Shown here piece after piece: positions 151 to 61,905 of a stretch of 64,000 nucleotides of DNA. Position 1 is the stretch's first letter. Each line of letters begins with the position of its first letter. A program made the position numbers and the translations under genes. The notes below the pieces were generated by a model. That model ran no database searches, had not been told where the DNA came from, and was given only the letters and a program-made list of their open reading frames with translations. The DNA is taken from assembly GCA_001604135.1 (NCBI GenBank), contig LVAT01000006.1, positions 1 to 64,000 of the forward strand. Direction: 5' to 3'. The DNA comes from Clostridiales bacterium Firm_14. Its GTDB lineage: Bacteria; Bacillota; Clostridia; Saccharofermentanales; Saccharofermentanaceae.

Positions 151-987
151 ATGGAAAGAAAATACAAAGCACTGCTTGCCGCGGATATGGATTTTACGCT
201 CCTTGCCCCCGGCAAGGACATTCCGGAAGGAAATAAGGAGGCCATCAGGGCCTTAAGGGATTCTTCTGTGGCATTCACGATCGCCACGGGAAGGTCATCC
301 TTCCTGGTCGGCAAATTTGCCGAAGACCTGGGCATCGACGTTCCGATAATGACGAGCAACGGAGGTTCGCTTTTCGACGCCTCGGCAAGAAAGCAGTTCG
401 CCTCAGTGGATTTCGAAGAAGCCAAGATCAAGGAACTCTTAAGATTCCTGATGACAAGGTCTGCTGACGCTACCCTCTATTCAGACGAGGGCATCTTCTT
501 TACGCCCGCTTCCACCAGAAGGGGCTTTGTCAATTCATATAACGAGGGCCTTGCTCCCGAGAAGCAGTCCCCCATGATCGAGATCGGCATGGATTTTATC
601 GAAAAGGACAACCTGCCGAAGTTCAACAAGATACTGCTGATAAGCGCGGACGAGGAGATCACGGGCGCGTTATCCTCCGACCCGGAACTTGAGGTCATAT
701 CCTCTGCCCCCAATCTTTTCGACGTTATGAGAAGCGGCGTATCCAAGGGCAACGCGCTCCTGAGCCTTGCTGATTATCTGGGTATCCCCGCTGATAATAC
801 TTTCGCGATAGGAGACAGTGACAACGACATCTCCATGATCGAGTCCGCAAAATACGGCATCGCCATGGGCAACGCCACGGGAGGCGTTAAGGCTGCCGCT
901 TCATATATCACTGCAAATTATGACAGCCTCGGCTTCGCCAAGGCTGTCCATGAATACGTTATTCCGTTGGTGAACTCTTTTAGTTAA
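151..987 (+). CDS. HAD-superfamily (Cof-type) phosphatase
   Basis: Predicted cytosolic Mg-dependent phosphatase of the Cof/YidA group, which hydrolyses small phosphorylated metabolites such as sugar phosphates; the substrate cannot be read from sequence. Motif I is near the N terminus (DMDFT, residues 13-17), with IATGRS as motif II, and the C-terminal motif IV is GDSDND followed by an AMGNA stretch. At 278 residues it has normal family length with the usual cap domain in the middle. The start at 151 follows a GGAG at 134-137, somewhat distant. It is convergent with the phosphoglucomutase gene and the two reading frames overlap by 8 bases at their 3' ends. Confidence 0.88.
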   Translation: MERKYKALLAADMDFTLLAPGKDIPEGNKEAIRALRDSSVAFTIATGRSSFLVGKFAEDLGIDVPIMTSNGGSLFDASARKQFASVDFEEAKIKELLRFLMTRSADATLYSDEGIFFTPASTRRGFVNSYNEGLAPEKQSPMIEIGMDFIEKDNLPKFNKILLISADEEITGALSSDPELEVISSAPNLFDVMRSGVSKGNALLSLADYLGIPADNTFAIGDSDNDISMIESAKYGIAMGNATGGVKAAASYITANYDSLGFAKAVHEYVIPLVNSFS

Positions 988-56515: not shown

Positions 56516-57787
56516 TCAGAAGCGCTTACCTTCGCCTTCTTTGATTTCAATTCCTTCCATCACAAAGGCTTCATAATATGAGTTGCAGTCGAATGCCGCA
56601 GGTGTGAATACGCCGGGCTTCTTCCACTTGTCTTTGCACATGAGCTTGACTCCTGCGATAAGCGCAGAACCCTTCATATACTCGAAAGCATTATTATAGT
56701 TCTTCTCATAGCACTCGTCATTATCACCCTTGATGATATAAGACTTGGTGATCTCCTTATCATCCCTCTTGCTCTGGCCGGTGATATAGATCTCGAAAGA
56801 TGCCATGCCCTTTGCCTTATCTTCCTCATCCTGCTCGAGCTCGATGTCTGCCTGCTTGGGAAGCATAGCAGCGATAAGATCGATAGGAGCTACCTCGACA
56901 TTATTGACCTTGACCGGAACGTTGGACAAAAGTCCCATTTCCTTCAGGAAGTCGATCTTCTTCTGGGGAGGTACATGCTCCTTGGGCGGCTTTTTGCCAA
57001 GCTTGAAATATCTAACGCTGATCGCATCAGGGAACTCCTTAAGGAGATCCGTGAGCATGGGGCTGGAAGATAAGTAAACCTTCGTGCCGCCTTCAGACTT
57101 AGCCTCGATGGAAAGAGGATCTGCCTCAACGACCTTGCCTTTATCGACATAGAAGACCTTCTTATCGTTGGTCGCATTCTTGATCGGAATAAGCGGCGGC
57201 TTGATGTCCTCCGAATAAAGATTTGTATCGATATCCTTCTTTTTGCCCTTGACGGTCTCTTTCTGCTCGCCTGATACGGATACGATATCGATGCTGTCGA
57301 TCTTCTTAAAGTGATAGAGACCGGCATGCCTTATGATCGTGTTTGCAACGCCCGGAACAAGTCCCACGCCGCAGACAGCCGTATTGCAGTTGTTCTGGAA
57401 AGCACTGAACTTCTCGAACTGCTTCGAAAGAAGCGAGATGGGTGACGGGAAATCCGGCACACCGAAAAGCGAGCTGTCGATATAATCAGCCTTCGCCTTA
57501 ATGGCGAGATCCATAGCCGAGAGCGAGAGCTCCGGCGGCAAAAGATTAACGACCATATCGGGCGCAAAGATCCTTACCATCATCATGGCGGCCTCGACAT
57601 TGTTCATGTCGATTCCTGCGGTAGTTACTCTGACACCCATACTTAAAGCGAGCTCTCTGAGCTCGTCACAGTCTTCCTTCTTACGTGAAGCAAGACAGAT
57701 ACCTGAAACATAGGATTGATATTTGCAAAGTTCAATGAGCAAACGCTTGGTCAACTCATTGCAACCGAGAATCAGTATCCTCTTCAT
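56516..57787 (-). CDS. Saccharopine dehydrogenase-family protein
   Basis: Rossmann-fold oxidoreductase, 423 residues. The N terminus MKRILILGCNELTKRLLIEL is a GxGxxG variant (GCNELT), ADYIDSSLFG follows at the end of the nucleotide domain, and GVGLVPGVANTI is the conserved stretch where the catalytic domain begins. This layout fits the saccharopine dehydrogenase / carboxynorspermidine dehydrogenase group, but the substrate cannot be decided. A carboxynorspermidine (polyamine) role is one option; no partner decarboxylase gene is nearby. Start at 57787 with GGGGGATGATC upstream. Confidence 0.75.
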   Translation of the reverse strand: MKRILILGCNELTKRLLIELCKYQSYVSGICLASRKKEDCDELRELALSMGVRVTTAGIDMNNVEAAMMMVRIFAPDMVVNLLPPELSLSAMDLAIKAKADYIDSSLFGVPDFPSPISLLSKQFEKFSAFQNNCNTAVCGVGLVPGVANTIIRHAGLYHFKKIDSIDIVSVSGEQKETVKGKKKDIDTNLYSEDIKPPLIPIKNATNDKKVFYVDKGKVVEADPLSIEAKSEGGTKVYLSSSPMLTDLLKEFPDAISVRYFKLGKKPPKEHVPPQKKIDFLKEMGLLSNVPVKVNNVEVAPIDLIAAMLPKQADIELEQDEEDKAKGMASFEIYITGQSKRDDKEITKSYIIKGDNDECYEKNYNNAFEYMKGSALIAGVKLMCKDKWKKPGVFTPAAFDCNSYYEAFVMEGIEIKEGEGKRF

Positions 57788-57953
57788 AAGATCATCCCCC
57801 AACGACCTTTCCCAAAATCTGAAATTATTATATTTAAAAAAATACTAATGAGCAAAGGAAAGAATACACAAATTTTAGGGCTTTTGTGCATATACCTTGC
57901 AACCTTTCATAGCGTAAGATACCGATATCCAAACTATAACAAAGGAGATTGTT

Positions 57954-58784
57954 ATGAAGACACTTAACAAAATCGCAGCAGCTTTCCTTTCTGCAGCTCT
58001 TTTGATCGGAATGACATCTTGCGGCGCAGCTAAGAAGAACCTCAAGATCCTTGACACAGCTTATGCAGTAGAAGACTACGCTATGGCTATCAGCAAGGAT
58101 AATGAACCTCTTAAGGCAGCTATCGACCAGGCACTCAAGGAACTTACAGATGACGGTACAATTCCTTCCATCATCGAGAAGTACATTCCTTCCGGTAAGA
58201 CAGTAGAGAAGAAGGAATCCGTAAAGGGCGAATATCCTGATTTCTCAACCATTCAGGAAGGCAAGCTCATCATGGCTACAAACGCTTACTTCCAGCCTTA
58301 TGAGTATCACGAAGGTGATGCTATCGTAGGTATCGACCCTGAGATCGCTAAGGCAGTAGCTGACAAGCTCGGTCTTGAGCTCGTTATCGAGGACGTTGAG
58401 TTCGATTCCATCATCGCAGGCGTTCAGGCAGGCAAGTACGATATCGGATGCGCAGGCATGACAGTTACAGAAGACAGACTTAAGTCCGTTAACTTCTCCA
58501 CACCTTACGCTACAGGTGTTCAGTCCGTAATCGTTGTTGAAGGTTCTGAGATCACAGACGTTGATAAGCTTCTTGCAGGAAACTACAAGGTTGGCGTTCA
58601 GACAGGTACAACAGGCGACATCTACATGTCCTCTTCTGTTGAAGACGGCGGTGTAGGCGAAGACAGAGTTGAGCGTTTCGCAAAGGGTAACGATGCAGTT
58701 ATCGCACTCCAGTCAGGCAAGATCGATGCAGTTGTTATCGACAATGAGCCTGCTAAGGCATTCGTTGCAGCAGCAAACAAGTAA
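57954..58784 (+). CDS. Amino-acid ABC transporter solute-binding lipoprotein, apparently circularly permuted
   Basis: A signal peptide with lipobox MTSC (Cys23) anchors this 276-residue protein. Residues about 30-78 (LKILDTAYAVEDYAMAI to IPSIIEKYI) are the segment that in ordinary family 3 binding proteins forms the C terminus. A Lys/Glu linker follows (79-100), then the normal N-terminal start KLIMATNAYFQPYEY (104 on), the ligand loop DIGCAGMTVTEDR, and the chain stops at VIDNEPAKAFVAAANK, exactly where LKILDT would normally continue. So the last piece has moved to the front. Permease and ATPase genes follow. AAGGAG precedes the ATG. Confidence 0.9.
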   Translation: MKTLNKIAAAFLSAALLIGMTSCGAAKKNLKILDTAYAVEDYAMAISKDNEPLKAAIDQALKELTDDGTIPSIIEKYIPSGKTVEKKESVKGEYPDFSTIQEGKLIMATNAYFQPYEYHEGDAIVGIDPEIAKAVADKLGLELVIEDVEFDSIIAGVQAGKYDIGCAGMTVTEDRLKSVNFSTPYATGVQSVIVVEGSEITDVDKLLAGNYKVGVQTGTTGDIYMSSSVEDGGVGEDRVERFAKGNDAVIALQSGKIDAVVIDNEPAKAFVAAANK

Positions 58785-58819: not shown

Positions 58820-58854
58820 AAAGAGCGGAAATATGGTCTGTATTTCCGCTCTTT
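58820..58854 (+). terminator. Terminator between binding-protein and permease genes
   Basis: A perfect 14-base-pair stem (58820-58833 with 58841-58854) around a 7-base loop, with its 3' arm ending CTCTTT followed by CATTATTT. It probably lets the binding protein be made in excess over the permease. Confidence 0.85.
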
Positions 58855-58916: not shown

Positions 58917-59783
58917 ATGAGCGGAAAAAAGACTAATAAATCCAAGATCAGAAATACGCTTATCGTGACCGGCGTGATCGCAGTGGCAGCTCTTGCAGCA
59001 TATATTTTGCTGTTTATGCCCATGAACAACGTCCCTTCATGGATCAGCAATATCCGTGATGCGTTCTATGCAAGCGCATTTTATTCAGATTTCGAAAACA
59101 ATTTCATAACAGATAACCGCTATACCTATCTACTCAAAGGTCTTGGCGTCACATTTGAAGTTACATTTTTCGCCGTACTTTTGGGTATCGTATTGGGAGT
59201 CATCGTTGCTCTCGTAAGATCATCTTATGACACTTTGAAAGAAGAGCTCAGGGGCTTTGGCAAAGGCATCCTTTATTTTTTCTATAAGCTCTGCGGTGTT
59301 TATCTTACGGTCATCAGAGGTACCCCTGTAGTCGTCCAGCTCATGATCATCTATTTCGTTATCTTCGCTTCATCCAACAACAAGGTCATGGTTGCCGTTC
59401 TTGCATTCGGTATCAACTCCGGTGCTTACGTTGCCGAGATCATCCGTGGCGGCATCATGAGTATCGACAAGGGCCAGTTCGAAGCAGGCCGTTCACTTGG
59501 TTTCGGTTATGTAAGGACAATGGCCTTCATCATCATTCCCCAGGCTTTTAAGACCGTTCTTCCCGCACTCGCAAACGAATTCATCGTTCTCATCAAAGAG
59601 ACTTCAGTATCAGGTTATGTCGGACTTCAGGAGCTGACAAAAGGCGGCGACATCATAAGGTCCAGAACCTATTCCGCGTTCATGCCGCTTATTGCTGTTG
59701 CGGTCATCTATCTCGTGATCGTCATGTTCTTCAGCTGGCTTGTATCGTTGCTCGAAAGGAGGCTCAAGAACAGTGAGCGCTGA
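58917..59783 (+). CDS. Amino-acid ABC transporter permease
   Basis: HisM/GlnP-type inner membrane subunit. A first hydrophobic helix (about 15-37) is followed by an extra loop of roughly 40 residues and then the family core (about 65-285) with [14 protein letters not shown], the EAA loop [24 protein letters not shown] that contacts the ATPase (shown by EAGRSLG and IIIPQAFK), and [14 protein letters not shown]. At 288 residues it is longer than usual at the N terminus. GAGG precedes the ATG. It overlaps the ATPase start by 11 bases. Confidence 0.94.
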
Positions 59784-60522
59784 TAATAACGTAATCATAT
59801 CCGTAAAGGATCTCAAAAAACACTATAACGACGGAGAGGTTAAAGCCTTGGACGGTGTTACCACCGATATCAAGAAAGGCGAAGTAGTCGTAGTCATCGG
59901 TCCTTCCGGTTCCGGAAAATCGACTTTCTTAAGGTCTCTTAATCTGCTCGAGCGCCCTACAGGCGGCACCATTACATTCGACGGCAACGACATCATGTCG
60001 CCTGCTACCGACATCAATAAGCTCAGACAGAAGATGGGAATGGTATTCCAGCACTTCAACCTCTTCCCTCACTTGACGATCTTAAGGAACATGACCATTG
60101 CTCCGATGAAGCTTCATGGTCTGTCCAAGGAAGAAGCAGAGAAAAAGGCTCTGGCGCTTCTCGAGAGAGTAGGTCTTGCCGACCGTGCAAACGCTTATCC
60201 TTCACAGCTCTCAGGCGGTCAGAAGCAGAGAATAGCAATCGTAAGGGCACTTGCGATGGATCCTGAAGTAATGCTCTTTGACGAGCCTACCAGTGCTTTG
60301 GATCCTGAGATGGTCGGAGAAGTTCTTGAGGTTATGAAGAACCTCGCAAAAGCCGGCATGACGATGGTCTGTGTAACACACGAGATGGGCTTCGCAAGAG
60401 AAGTCGGCACTCGCGTAGTATTTATGGACTGTGGTAGAATCATTGAAGAGAACACACCTGAACAGATCTTCACAAATCCTCAGAATGAGAGACTTCAGGC
60501 GTTCTTGCAAAAGGTTTTATAA
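59773..60522 (+). CDS. Amino-acid ABC transporter ATP-binding protein
   Basis: GlnQ/HisP-type ATPase. Walker [11 protein letters not shown] loop [12 protein letters not shown], signature [15 protein letters not shown], Walker [15 protein letters not shown] and H loop CVTHEMGFA are all present. The start is GTG at 59773, ten bases after AGGAGG, giving 249 residues; an earlier ATG at 59740 lies within the permease gene with no ribosome site. It completes a binding protein-permease-ATPase system. Confidence 0.96.
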
Positions 60523-60540: not shown

Positions 60541-61287
60541 ATGTATTGTGAATCATGTGGTTCTTTTATTCCTGACGGTCAGTCATTCTGTTCTAACTGC
60601 GGCACACCCGTAAGCGCTCCGGCAGCTCAGCCTGCTCCCGCTCCGGCTCCTGTGGCAGCAGCGCCAGTAGTTGCGGCTGCGCCCGCACCCGCACCCGCAC
60701 CTGCTCCGGCTCCTGCAGCACAGCCTGTTCAGCCTGTATATCAGCAGCCTCAGGCTCAGCCCGTACAGCCGGTATATCAGCCTGTTTACCAGCAGGCACA
60801 GTCCGTTCAGCCCGTATACCAGCCTGTTTATCAGCCTGCCTATCAGCAAGCCTCTGCAACTAATGCGAAGCGTGCCAATGGCGCTGCTACGGCAGCACTC
60901 GTATTCGGTATCATCGCGTTCGTTCTGTTCTGGATTCCGTTTTTCAATATCTTTACGACCGGAATCCTTGGACTTCTCGGATTGATTTTTTCCATCGTAG
61001 GACTTGCTAAAAAGAACGCAGGTGGCAAAGCTAAGGCCGTCGTAGGTCTCGTATTGACCATTCTCGCCATCGCCGCTACTGTCGGTTATTACGGATTGGT
61101 CTGGCAGGCTATCGTTTCCGATCCTGAGCTCAGCGAGGAATGGGAAGAGATTTTCGAAGACGTCAATTCCACAGGCGAAGAAGATATAGATTCCAACACT
61201 TTCTACATTGACGGTGATTACCTGAAGACAGATAACGGTTACGTAACCGGTGTCCTTCACATCGACGGTTACAGAGTAGATTTCTGA
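60541..61287 (+). CDS. Zinc-ribbon / DUF4190-like membrane protein (paralog 1)
   Basis: An N-terminal zinc ribbon (CESCG and CSNCG, residues 3-21), a low-complexity Ala/Pro stretch (about 24-65), a repeated QPVYQ tract (about 65-103), then two hydrophobic segments (about 115-150 and 160-182) matching the DUF4190 pattern (NGAATAALVFGIIAF, GLIFSIVGLAKKNAGGKAKAVVGLVL), and a short acidic outer domain (about 190-248). Function unknown; such proteins are common in Gram-positive anaerobes. It follows the ATPase gene by 18 bases. A terminator separates it from its shorter paralog. Confidence 0.75.
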   Translation: MYCESCGSFIPDGQSFCSNCGTPVSAPAAQPAPAPAPVAAAPVVAAAPAPAPAPAPAPAAQPVQPVYQQPQAQPVQPVYQPVYQQAQSVQPVYQPVYQPAYQQASATNAKRANGAATAALVFGIIAFVLFWIPFFNIFTTGILGLLGLIFSIVGLAKKNAGGKAKAVVGLVLTILAIAATVGYYGLVWQAIVSDPELSEEWEEIFEDVNSTGEEDIDSNTFYIDGDYLKTDNGYVTGVLHIDGYRVDF

Positions 61288-61313
61288 ACTTAAACAACAA
61301 ATAAATTGATCGG

Positions 61314-61346
61314 ACTGCCCGCAAATCAATGCGGGCAGTGTTTTTG
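61314..61346 (+). terminator. Terminator after zinc-ribbon paralog 1
   Basis: Perfect 9-base-pair stem ACTGCCCGC/GCGGGCAGT (61314-61322 with 61331-61339), followed by GTTTTTG. Confidence 0.9.
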
Positions 61347-61395
61347 TATGGTACAATCTGCAATTGACAGACAATATTTAATTGGGGGTAGATTT

Positions 61396-61905
61396 ATGTT
61401 TTGCGAACAATGCGGTTCTCTTCTTCAGAATGGCGAGACTTTTTGCACTAATTGCGGCGCACCTGTATCCGCAGCCAATGCTGCGCCTTCTCCGGCTCCC
61501 GGACCTGCTCCCGCACCCGGACCTGTAGTTCAGCCGATAATCCAGACTCAGGCTCAGCCCGTTCAGCCTGTATATCAGCAGTCTCAGCCGGTTCAACCCA
61601 TTTACCAGCAGCCGGTCTATCAGCAGCCTGCATATCAGGCTGTGGTCATTACGCCTTTCGATCGTCCGAAGCCAAATGGTTTTGCAACTGCCGGCATGGT
61701 ATTAGGTATCGTTACCTGTGCGCTGTACTGGACTTCTATTTTCAATATGATCCCGGGAATTATGGCGATTATATTCTCGATCGTCGGAATTACAAAGAAG
61801 GATTGCGGCGGCAGAGGCAAGTGCATCGCAGGCTTCATTACCGCGGGCATCGGAATGGCGCTCGGTATCATTGCGCTGATAGCATATATTAATAACGACT
61901 ATTGA
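61396..61905 (+). CDS. Zinc-ribbon / DUF4190-like membrane protein (paralog 2)
   Basis: 169 residues with the same layout as the preceding gene: zinc ribbon CEQCG/CTNCG, an Ala/Pro stretch, a QPVYQ-type repeat tract, then a DUF4190-like pair of helices (NGFATAGMVLGIVTCA and IIFSIVGITKKDCGG). It stops right after the second helix, so it lacks the acidic outer domain of paralog 1. The start is ATG 61396 after GGGGGTAG. It is convergent with trmL across 15 bases. Confidence 0.72.
   Translation: MFCEQCGSLLQNGETFCTNCGAPVSAANAAPSPAPGPAPAPGPVVQPIIQTQAQPVQPVYQQSQPVQPIYQQPVYQQPAYQAVVITPFDRPKPNGFATAGMVLGIVTCALYWTSIFNMIPGIMAIIFSIVGITKKDCGGRGKCIAGFITAGIGMALGIIALIAYINNDY

Follow-up and report, generated by a model that had tools for sequence, protein, structure and literature searches.

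A circularly permuted family-3 solute-binding lipoprotein in a Clostridia genome and related re-orderings in its class

Does the gene at positions 57954-58784 encode a substrate-binding protein whose chain has been circularly permuted, and if so, how did the permutation arise and what does the protein do? In the window, the whole 64,000-nucleotide stretch of DNA analysed here, this plus-strand open reading frame (ORF) starts with ATG and encodes 276 amino acids with a lipobox cysteine at residue 23. Family-3 solute-binding proteins canonically run in the order N-M-C, where N opens lobe 1 and reaches into lobe 2, M completes lobe 2 and adds the second hinge strand with the bulk of the helix behind it, and C closes lobe 1. 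In the window protein, the last ~50 residues of the fold instead stand directly after the lipobox and the chain stops where they would normally follow, giving the order C-N-M rather than N-M-C. The lobes and hinge strands named below are those that we take the protein to share with family-3 structures.

57954..58784, + strand: permuted family-3 solute-binding lipoprotein gene, order C-N-M, 276 amino acids (sequence, phmmer against PDB, ORF segment order)
57954..58022, + strand: signal peptide ending in the lipobox MTSC (Cys 23), residues 1-23 (sequence; resembles the signal of canonical sisters)
58038..58193, + strand: moved C segment, residues 29-80, final lobe 1 strands plus two helices (phmmer, C profile, predicted structure)
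58194..58256, + strand: new linker, residues 81-101, from old C terminus to old N terminus (sequence comparison)
58257..58535, + strand: N segment, residues 102-194, initial portion of lobe 1, plus first hinge strand and beginning of lobe 2 (segment order, predicted structure)
58569..58769, + strand: M segment, residues 206-272, remaining lobe 2, then second hinge strand (259-263) and the greater part of helix 264-274 (segment order, predicted structure)

Segment order of the window protein

The protein scored 118.3 bits against SBP_bac_3 (PF00497; gathering cut-off, 26.4), in two stretches, and this was the only Pfam family to pass its cut-off. When PDB chains were searched with phmmer, window residues 102-272 aligned to residues 9-176 of 4zv1 and residues 29-78 to residues 182-231, i.e. 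in swapped order, with the shorter piece being weak by itself (i-Evalue 0.018). With a profile of C derived from 13 canonical sequences, residues 24-101 scored 95 bits, whereas none of the 1,903 shuffles that scored at all (2,000 were made) exceeded 16 bits. The initial annotation had placed the moved segment at residues 30-78; its position behind the lipobox held up in both the phmmer and C-profile searches, while its bounds are now about 29-80. The two-piece match to 4zv1 likewise bears out the claim that the protein ends where this segment would normally follow. The new termini had also been located at the hinge, which proved incorrect for the C terminus: it lies one helix (264-274) beyond the hinge strand at 259-263, so this last helix is predicted to belong to lobe 1.

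We also looked for second copies of the segment. No further C segment followed the start of N in any of 82 permuted ORFs, and none preceded N in the 167 canonical ORFs tested (of 168), using the C profile at 15 bits in both cases and with some ORFs repeating one gene. C-like sequence was also not found in the 400 bases 3' of the window stop codon. The absence of a second copy within or just beside the gene indicates that the segment was moved rather than duplicated, as the initial annotation had proposed, and we rejected the duplication reading.

Predicted secondary structure gave the same segment assignment. AlphaFold2 modelled the window protein with 15 permuted sequences at a pLDDT of 86.9 and a pTM of 0.79 (one of the five models was poor, with a mean pLDDT of 69.0), and a canonical sister with 15 canonical sequences at a pLDDT of 78.7 and a pTM of 0.66. 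Helices 51-66 and 69-77 of the permuted model corresponded in register to canonical helices 238-253 and 256-264 (plus 187), and strands 30-32 and 45-47 fell on canonical strands 217-221 and 232-234. The N-M helices were offset between the two models by 60 residues, with ends differing by ~1 residue. Some strands differed, strand 38-42 being called in the permuted model only and not in the canonical one. Structure prediction had been expected to supply the moved residues as the missing strand and helix of lobe 1, and the secondary structure of residues 29-78 is indeed in register with the canonical C segment, an agreement at the level of secondary structure only. Fold searches of the PDB (Foldseek, VIA-align) mainly aligned window residues 84-276, an outcome expected of sequential aligners that says little about the placement of residues 29-78.

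Genus orthologues, selection and the permuted operon

An orthologue search covered 59 genomes, 35 of them from the window genus, including the window's own. Of these 35, eight matched collinearly over the whole window protein, 25 carried an orthologue matching as N-M and then directly C, and two (G010 and G021) gave weak matches only. The canonical N-M-C orthologues were 64-83% identical to the window protein over N-M, with the nearest at 80-83%. A survey of segment order found C-N-M in 22 of 85 genomes of the genus (own included), each confirmed by ORF segment order. The window genome itself held only one further match, a canonical paralogue with 28% identity.

Across 16 permutants of the genus, dN/dS was 0.105 in the C segment and 0.098 in N+M, rising to 0.216 in the linker and 0.266 in the signal peptide; these are ratios of means from pairwise Nei-Gojobori estimates over the 120 non-independent pairs of 16 genes, of which 116 (C), 120 (N+M), 82 (linker) and 119 (signal) were used after dS values outside 0.05-2.5 were left out. 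The moved segment is therefore under purifying selection like the remainder of the protein.

These results bear on two alternative readings. The first is an artefact created when a metagenome-assembled genome (MAG) was assembled or binned, in favour of which 14 of 15 named C-N-M loci come from uncultured isolates or MAGs according to their record titles. However, the order recurs in the 22 genomes of the genus, including the named strain AB4001 (L059, whose title bears no MAG tag), as well as in single-contig genomes of other families (G375, G402, G522), and the permuted genes are under purifying selection. The same order in independent genomes refutes the artefact reading, which we consider to have almost no chance of being correct, and answers the concern raised in the initial annotation. 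It is also very improbable that the gene is a degenerate or chimeric one that is expressed without binding or transport, since dN/dS is about 0.1 in the structured parts, the ligand-contact residues and operon are kept, and no other close copy exists in the genome. All four lines of evidence, namely the sequence, the comparison with orthologues, selection and the secondary structure predicted, support a circular permutation of the window gene.

The surroundings of the gene are as follows.

56516..57802, - strand: saccharopine-dehydrogenase-like gene, divergent, a synteny marker (domain match, neighbour comparison)
58820..58854, + strand: terminator-like hairpin of 16 pairs between the binding-protein and permease genes (pattern match only)
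58917..59783, + strand: ABC permease (BPD_transp_1; Pfam match), kept beside permuted and canonical genes
59740..60522, + strand: ABC ATPase (ABC_tran; Pfam match), listed start TTG, with a true start that may lie downstream

The window protein thus has the lipobox and the adjoining permease and ATPase genes of an ABC-importer binding protein. Permease and ATPase genes lay downstream of the C-N-M gene in 22 of 22 genus permutants, and a saccharopine-dehydrogenase-like neighbour was near 19 of them; it was not seen in the stretch examined near the other three (G115, G117 and G126), nor in the 3 kb upstream of the named locus L062. All three neighbours were present at the closest canonical sisters (L011-L015). 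Because permuted and canonical genes share these neighbours, the permutation most likely happened in place. The hairpin at 58820-58854, a pattern match, may perhaps attenuate the downstream genes. Beyond the ATPase gene, adjacent reading frames at 60541-61287 and 61306-61905 encode zinc-ribbon proteins with proline/alanine/glutamine-rich linkers, apparently tandem paralogues.

The junctions offer some indication of the route. The canonical sister L012 reads signal-SC-(AAAQQTEAANSASFTTIES)-N-M-(KSND)-C-PAEG-stop and the window protein reads signal-SC-(GAAKK)-C-(PSGKTVEKKESVKGEYPDFSTIQE)-N-M-(AAANK)-stop. By eye, the start of the linker resembles the canonical tail (PAEG) and its end resembles the canonical lead-in (FTTIES), so that the linker ends would be what a tandem fusion trimmed on both sides leaves behind. 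The signal peptide and lead-in of the genus permutants match those of their canonical sisters. The gene may have been copied in tandem and in frame, after which the leading N-M stretch, the signal of the second copy and the trailing C stretch were lost. None of 335 classified ORFs was an intermediate in which a single N-M unit is flanked by C on either side, so this route is a guess. Separately, two canonical binding-protein genes stand side by side upstream of one permease at L080:2389-4250, possibly a tandem duplication of the kind able to feed a permutation.

Spread and origins of two permutations

The initial annotation had suggested a sequence search for other proteins with the same order, and such proteins proved to recur in the class. 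Surveys with the C-N-M profile covered 391 genomes of the class and 398 of the phylum, and those with an M-C-N profile covered 188 genomes of the order and 391 of the class; since few candidates per genome were scored, all counts are lower bounds. Among the loci examined, ORF segment order revealed C-N-M in at least 59 genomes (20 genera, 14 families of the class) and a different order, M-C-N, in at least 41 (23 genera, 13 families), with no genome carrying both. In the class sample of 391, at least 36 genomes had C-N-M and at least 23 had M-C-N by ORF order. In the phylum sample, the whole C-N-M profile was matched, among the matches listed, only by G000 and G271, both of the window class. 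Contiguous C-N matches were observed in three genomes of the phylum outside the class (G640, G656 and G837).

M-C-N is a second, different circular permutation, cut inside lobe 2. Its layout, exemplified by L033, comprises a lipobox, a stretch like DLKGKTIGVQSGTTGD, the hinge, C, a linker and N, ending near VVIRK; loci of this kind include L033, L034, L036-L042, L221-L233 and L239-L247. Permease and ATPase genes lay downstream of 84 of 88 C-N-M ORFs and 69 of 72 M-C-N ORFs. The exceptions were L154, L207, L149 and L242, which showed the permease only (0.5-1.3 kb of flank), and L167 and L330 (one genome, 1.3-1.5 kb of flank) and L331 (1.5 kb), which showed neither.

Some larger arrangements were also observed. 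By eye, M-C-N domains run C-terminally into an ABC permease at L223:1663-3246, L229:1708-3240 and L230:1858-3357 (499-527 amino acids). L052:950-4183 and L251:396-3575 encode proteins of 1,077 and 1,059 amino acids with several family-3 units, in the order N-M-C-N-M-C-N; in L052, which also matches the window permease close to its end, an M-C pair precedes by eye, and its array therefore seems to be in M-C-N phase.

To count origins, trees were built on re-ordered segments. In quick trees of 113 rows (identical rows dropped) and 160 rows (268 ORFs minus near-copies by shared 4-mers), the permutants of the genus and the canonical sisters nearest to them fell in one fork that these trees left unordered. 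In a careful tree of 63 hand-chosen rows of the 160, the four genus permutants included grouped together at 96/91 and were sister to canonical L011/L012 at 99/90, making a single origin within the genus likely but not certain. Counted on its starred branches, this tree has at least four changes for C-N-M and two for M-C-N. AU tests of groups that were named after the trees had been seen rejected one clade of all C-N-M proteins (p = 2.1e-24) and a clade of the genus with group 2 (p = 0.0003), and more weakly rejected groups 2 and 3 as one (p = 0.018). Group 2 as one clade (p = 0.0521) and a single M-C-N clade (p = 0.133) were not rejected, although the free tree splits both.

Linkers also differ between the C-N-M groups (PSGATVEKKDSVTSDYPEFTTIEA in L010, SGVEHDLTFQQDAEGKE in L099 and FGDGEPEPVESAELNPSKD in L194), while the C termini of 13 C-N-M proteins, drawn from all three groups, lie at one loop to within a few residues, after the helix following the second hinge strand. 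The AU rejections, the differing linkers and the shared end loop together indicate at least two, and probably three, separate origins of C-N-M with one preferred cut. The nearly identical cut points could instead reflect one old permuted ancestor of all C-N-M proteins, with the genus having obtained its copy through transfer accompanied by gene conversion and not through a fresh permutation, and trees from short, converted genes can mislead. We consider this unlikely, however, given the AU results for the all-C-N-M clade, for the genus with group 2 and, more weakly, for groups 2 and 3, the apparently unrelated linkers, and the match of the genus signal peptide and lead-in to those of canonical sisters. 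Separate origins are thus the reading that we retain.

Probable function and comparison with known systems

Residues G168, T170, R175 and D263, presumably the amino-acid contacts known from family structures (G-x-T...R and the D after the second hinge strand), were invariant in 15 permuted proteins (set A1), in keeping with membership of SBP_bac_3. We are highly confident that the window protein still works as the substrate-binding lipoprotein of an ABC importer for polar amino acids, its chain having been circularly permuted in place; the operon most likely imports a polar amino acid. The segment that closes lobe 1 in canonical proteins now lies between the lipobox and the old N terminus, with a linker of ~20 residues joining the old ends. 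The protein would keep the same two-lobed clamp fold, bind its amino acid between the lobes and hand it to the operon's permease, and its lipid anchor would sit on the C segment via a short tether rather than on the first strand of lobe 1.

Domain swapping occurs in family-3 proteins, e.g. in Thermotoga maritima ArgBP, and the moved segment might similarly swap into a neighbouring molecule of a dimer rather than pack on its own lobe. We think this distinctly unlikely, as a linker of ~20 residues should suffice for intramolecular closure and the AlphaFold2 monomer model is confident. The median distance from the lipobox cysteine to the first segment was 10 residues in C-N-M (lipobox found in 61 of 63 distinct proteins), 20 in N-M-C (142 of 147) and 18 in M-C-N (39 of 40), medians that are not adjusted for relatedness and are sensitive to the start points of the segment models. 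A tentative and, on balance, doubtful extension is that family-3 permutation recurs in Clostridia at two preferred loops (C-N-M at least twice and probably three times near the same loop, M-C-N once or twice) and is kept because the lipid tether is re-sited, and shortened in C-N-M, changing how the anchored protein meets its permease.

Both forms occur in the window genus and two permutations in its class, with separate events having hit almost the same loop; similar reshuffles recurring in gut and rumen Clostridia amount to a natural experiment on how far proteins tolerate re-wiring. Permutants that pair with canonical orthologues 80-83% identical over N-M in the same operon are valuable comparison material, allowing direct tests of how permutations arise, of hinge topology and of lipid tethering, and they are ready-made permuted scaffolds for biosensors. 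Collinear domain models see such proteins only as two broken pieces.

By both ancestry and profile the window protein belongs to the family-3 binding proteins, and we found no description of its topology. The permuted order was seen in none of the solved chains among the best 60 of 106 (window protein query), 284 (C-N-M profile) or 412 (M-C-N profile), the tandem 6h30 aside, and no NCBIfam match spanned it in five proteins. Type I chains were absent from the fold-search lists, which mainly align the N-M part, an absence that by itself would not settle the fold class. A literature search that reached few subscription papers returned no natural permuted family-3 binding protein, in agreement with the initial annotation, although the case is not a lone one but recurrent in its class; the only natural precedent found was TpMglB-2, of Type I.

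Among canonical relatives, AncQR (4zv1) is homologous over almost its full length once the window segments are re-ordered, and GlnH, ArtJ, ArgBP and AncQR (1wdn, 2pvu, 6svf, 4zv1) matched with Z scores of 14.8-15.6 over 165-172 aligned residues, mostly in N-M, but differ in having the N-M-C order. The tandem GlnPQ domains (6h30) form an array that contains the M-C-N phase across their junction; these are, however, two canonical domains in a single chain, with no permutation. TpMglB-2 (Tp0684) of Treponema pallidum is a Type Ic / Cluster Bc protein and, like the window protein, a naturally permuted, lipid-anchored ABC substrate-binding protein; it has relatives in Gram-positive gut bacteria and retains binding and conformational change, and its authors proposed a tethering idea for it (PMC4990184). 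On the topology described there for Cluster Bc, we rejected membership for the window protein on the grounds that only SBP_bac_3 passes in Pfam and that the canonical C end stands in front. TpMglB-2 has a Type I sugar-binding fold in which N-lobe strands moved C-terminally and a fourth hinge crossing was added (PMC4990184), whereas the window protein is of family 3 and the amino-acid type, with its C segment moved to the front.
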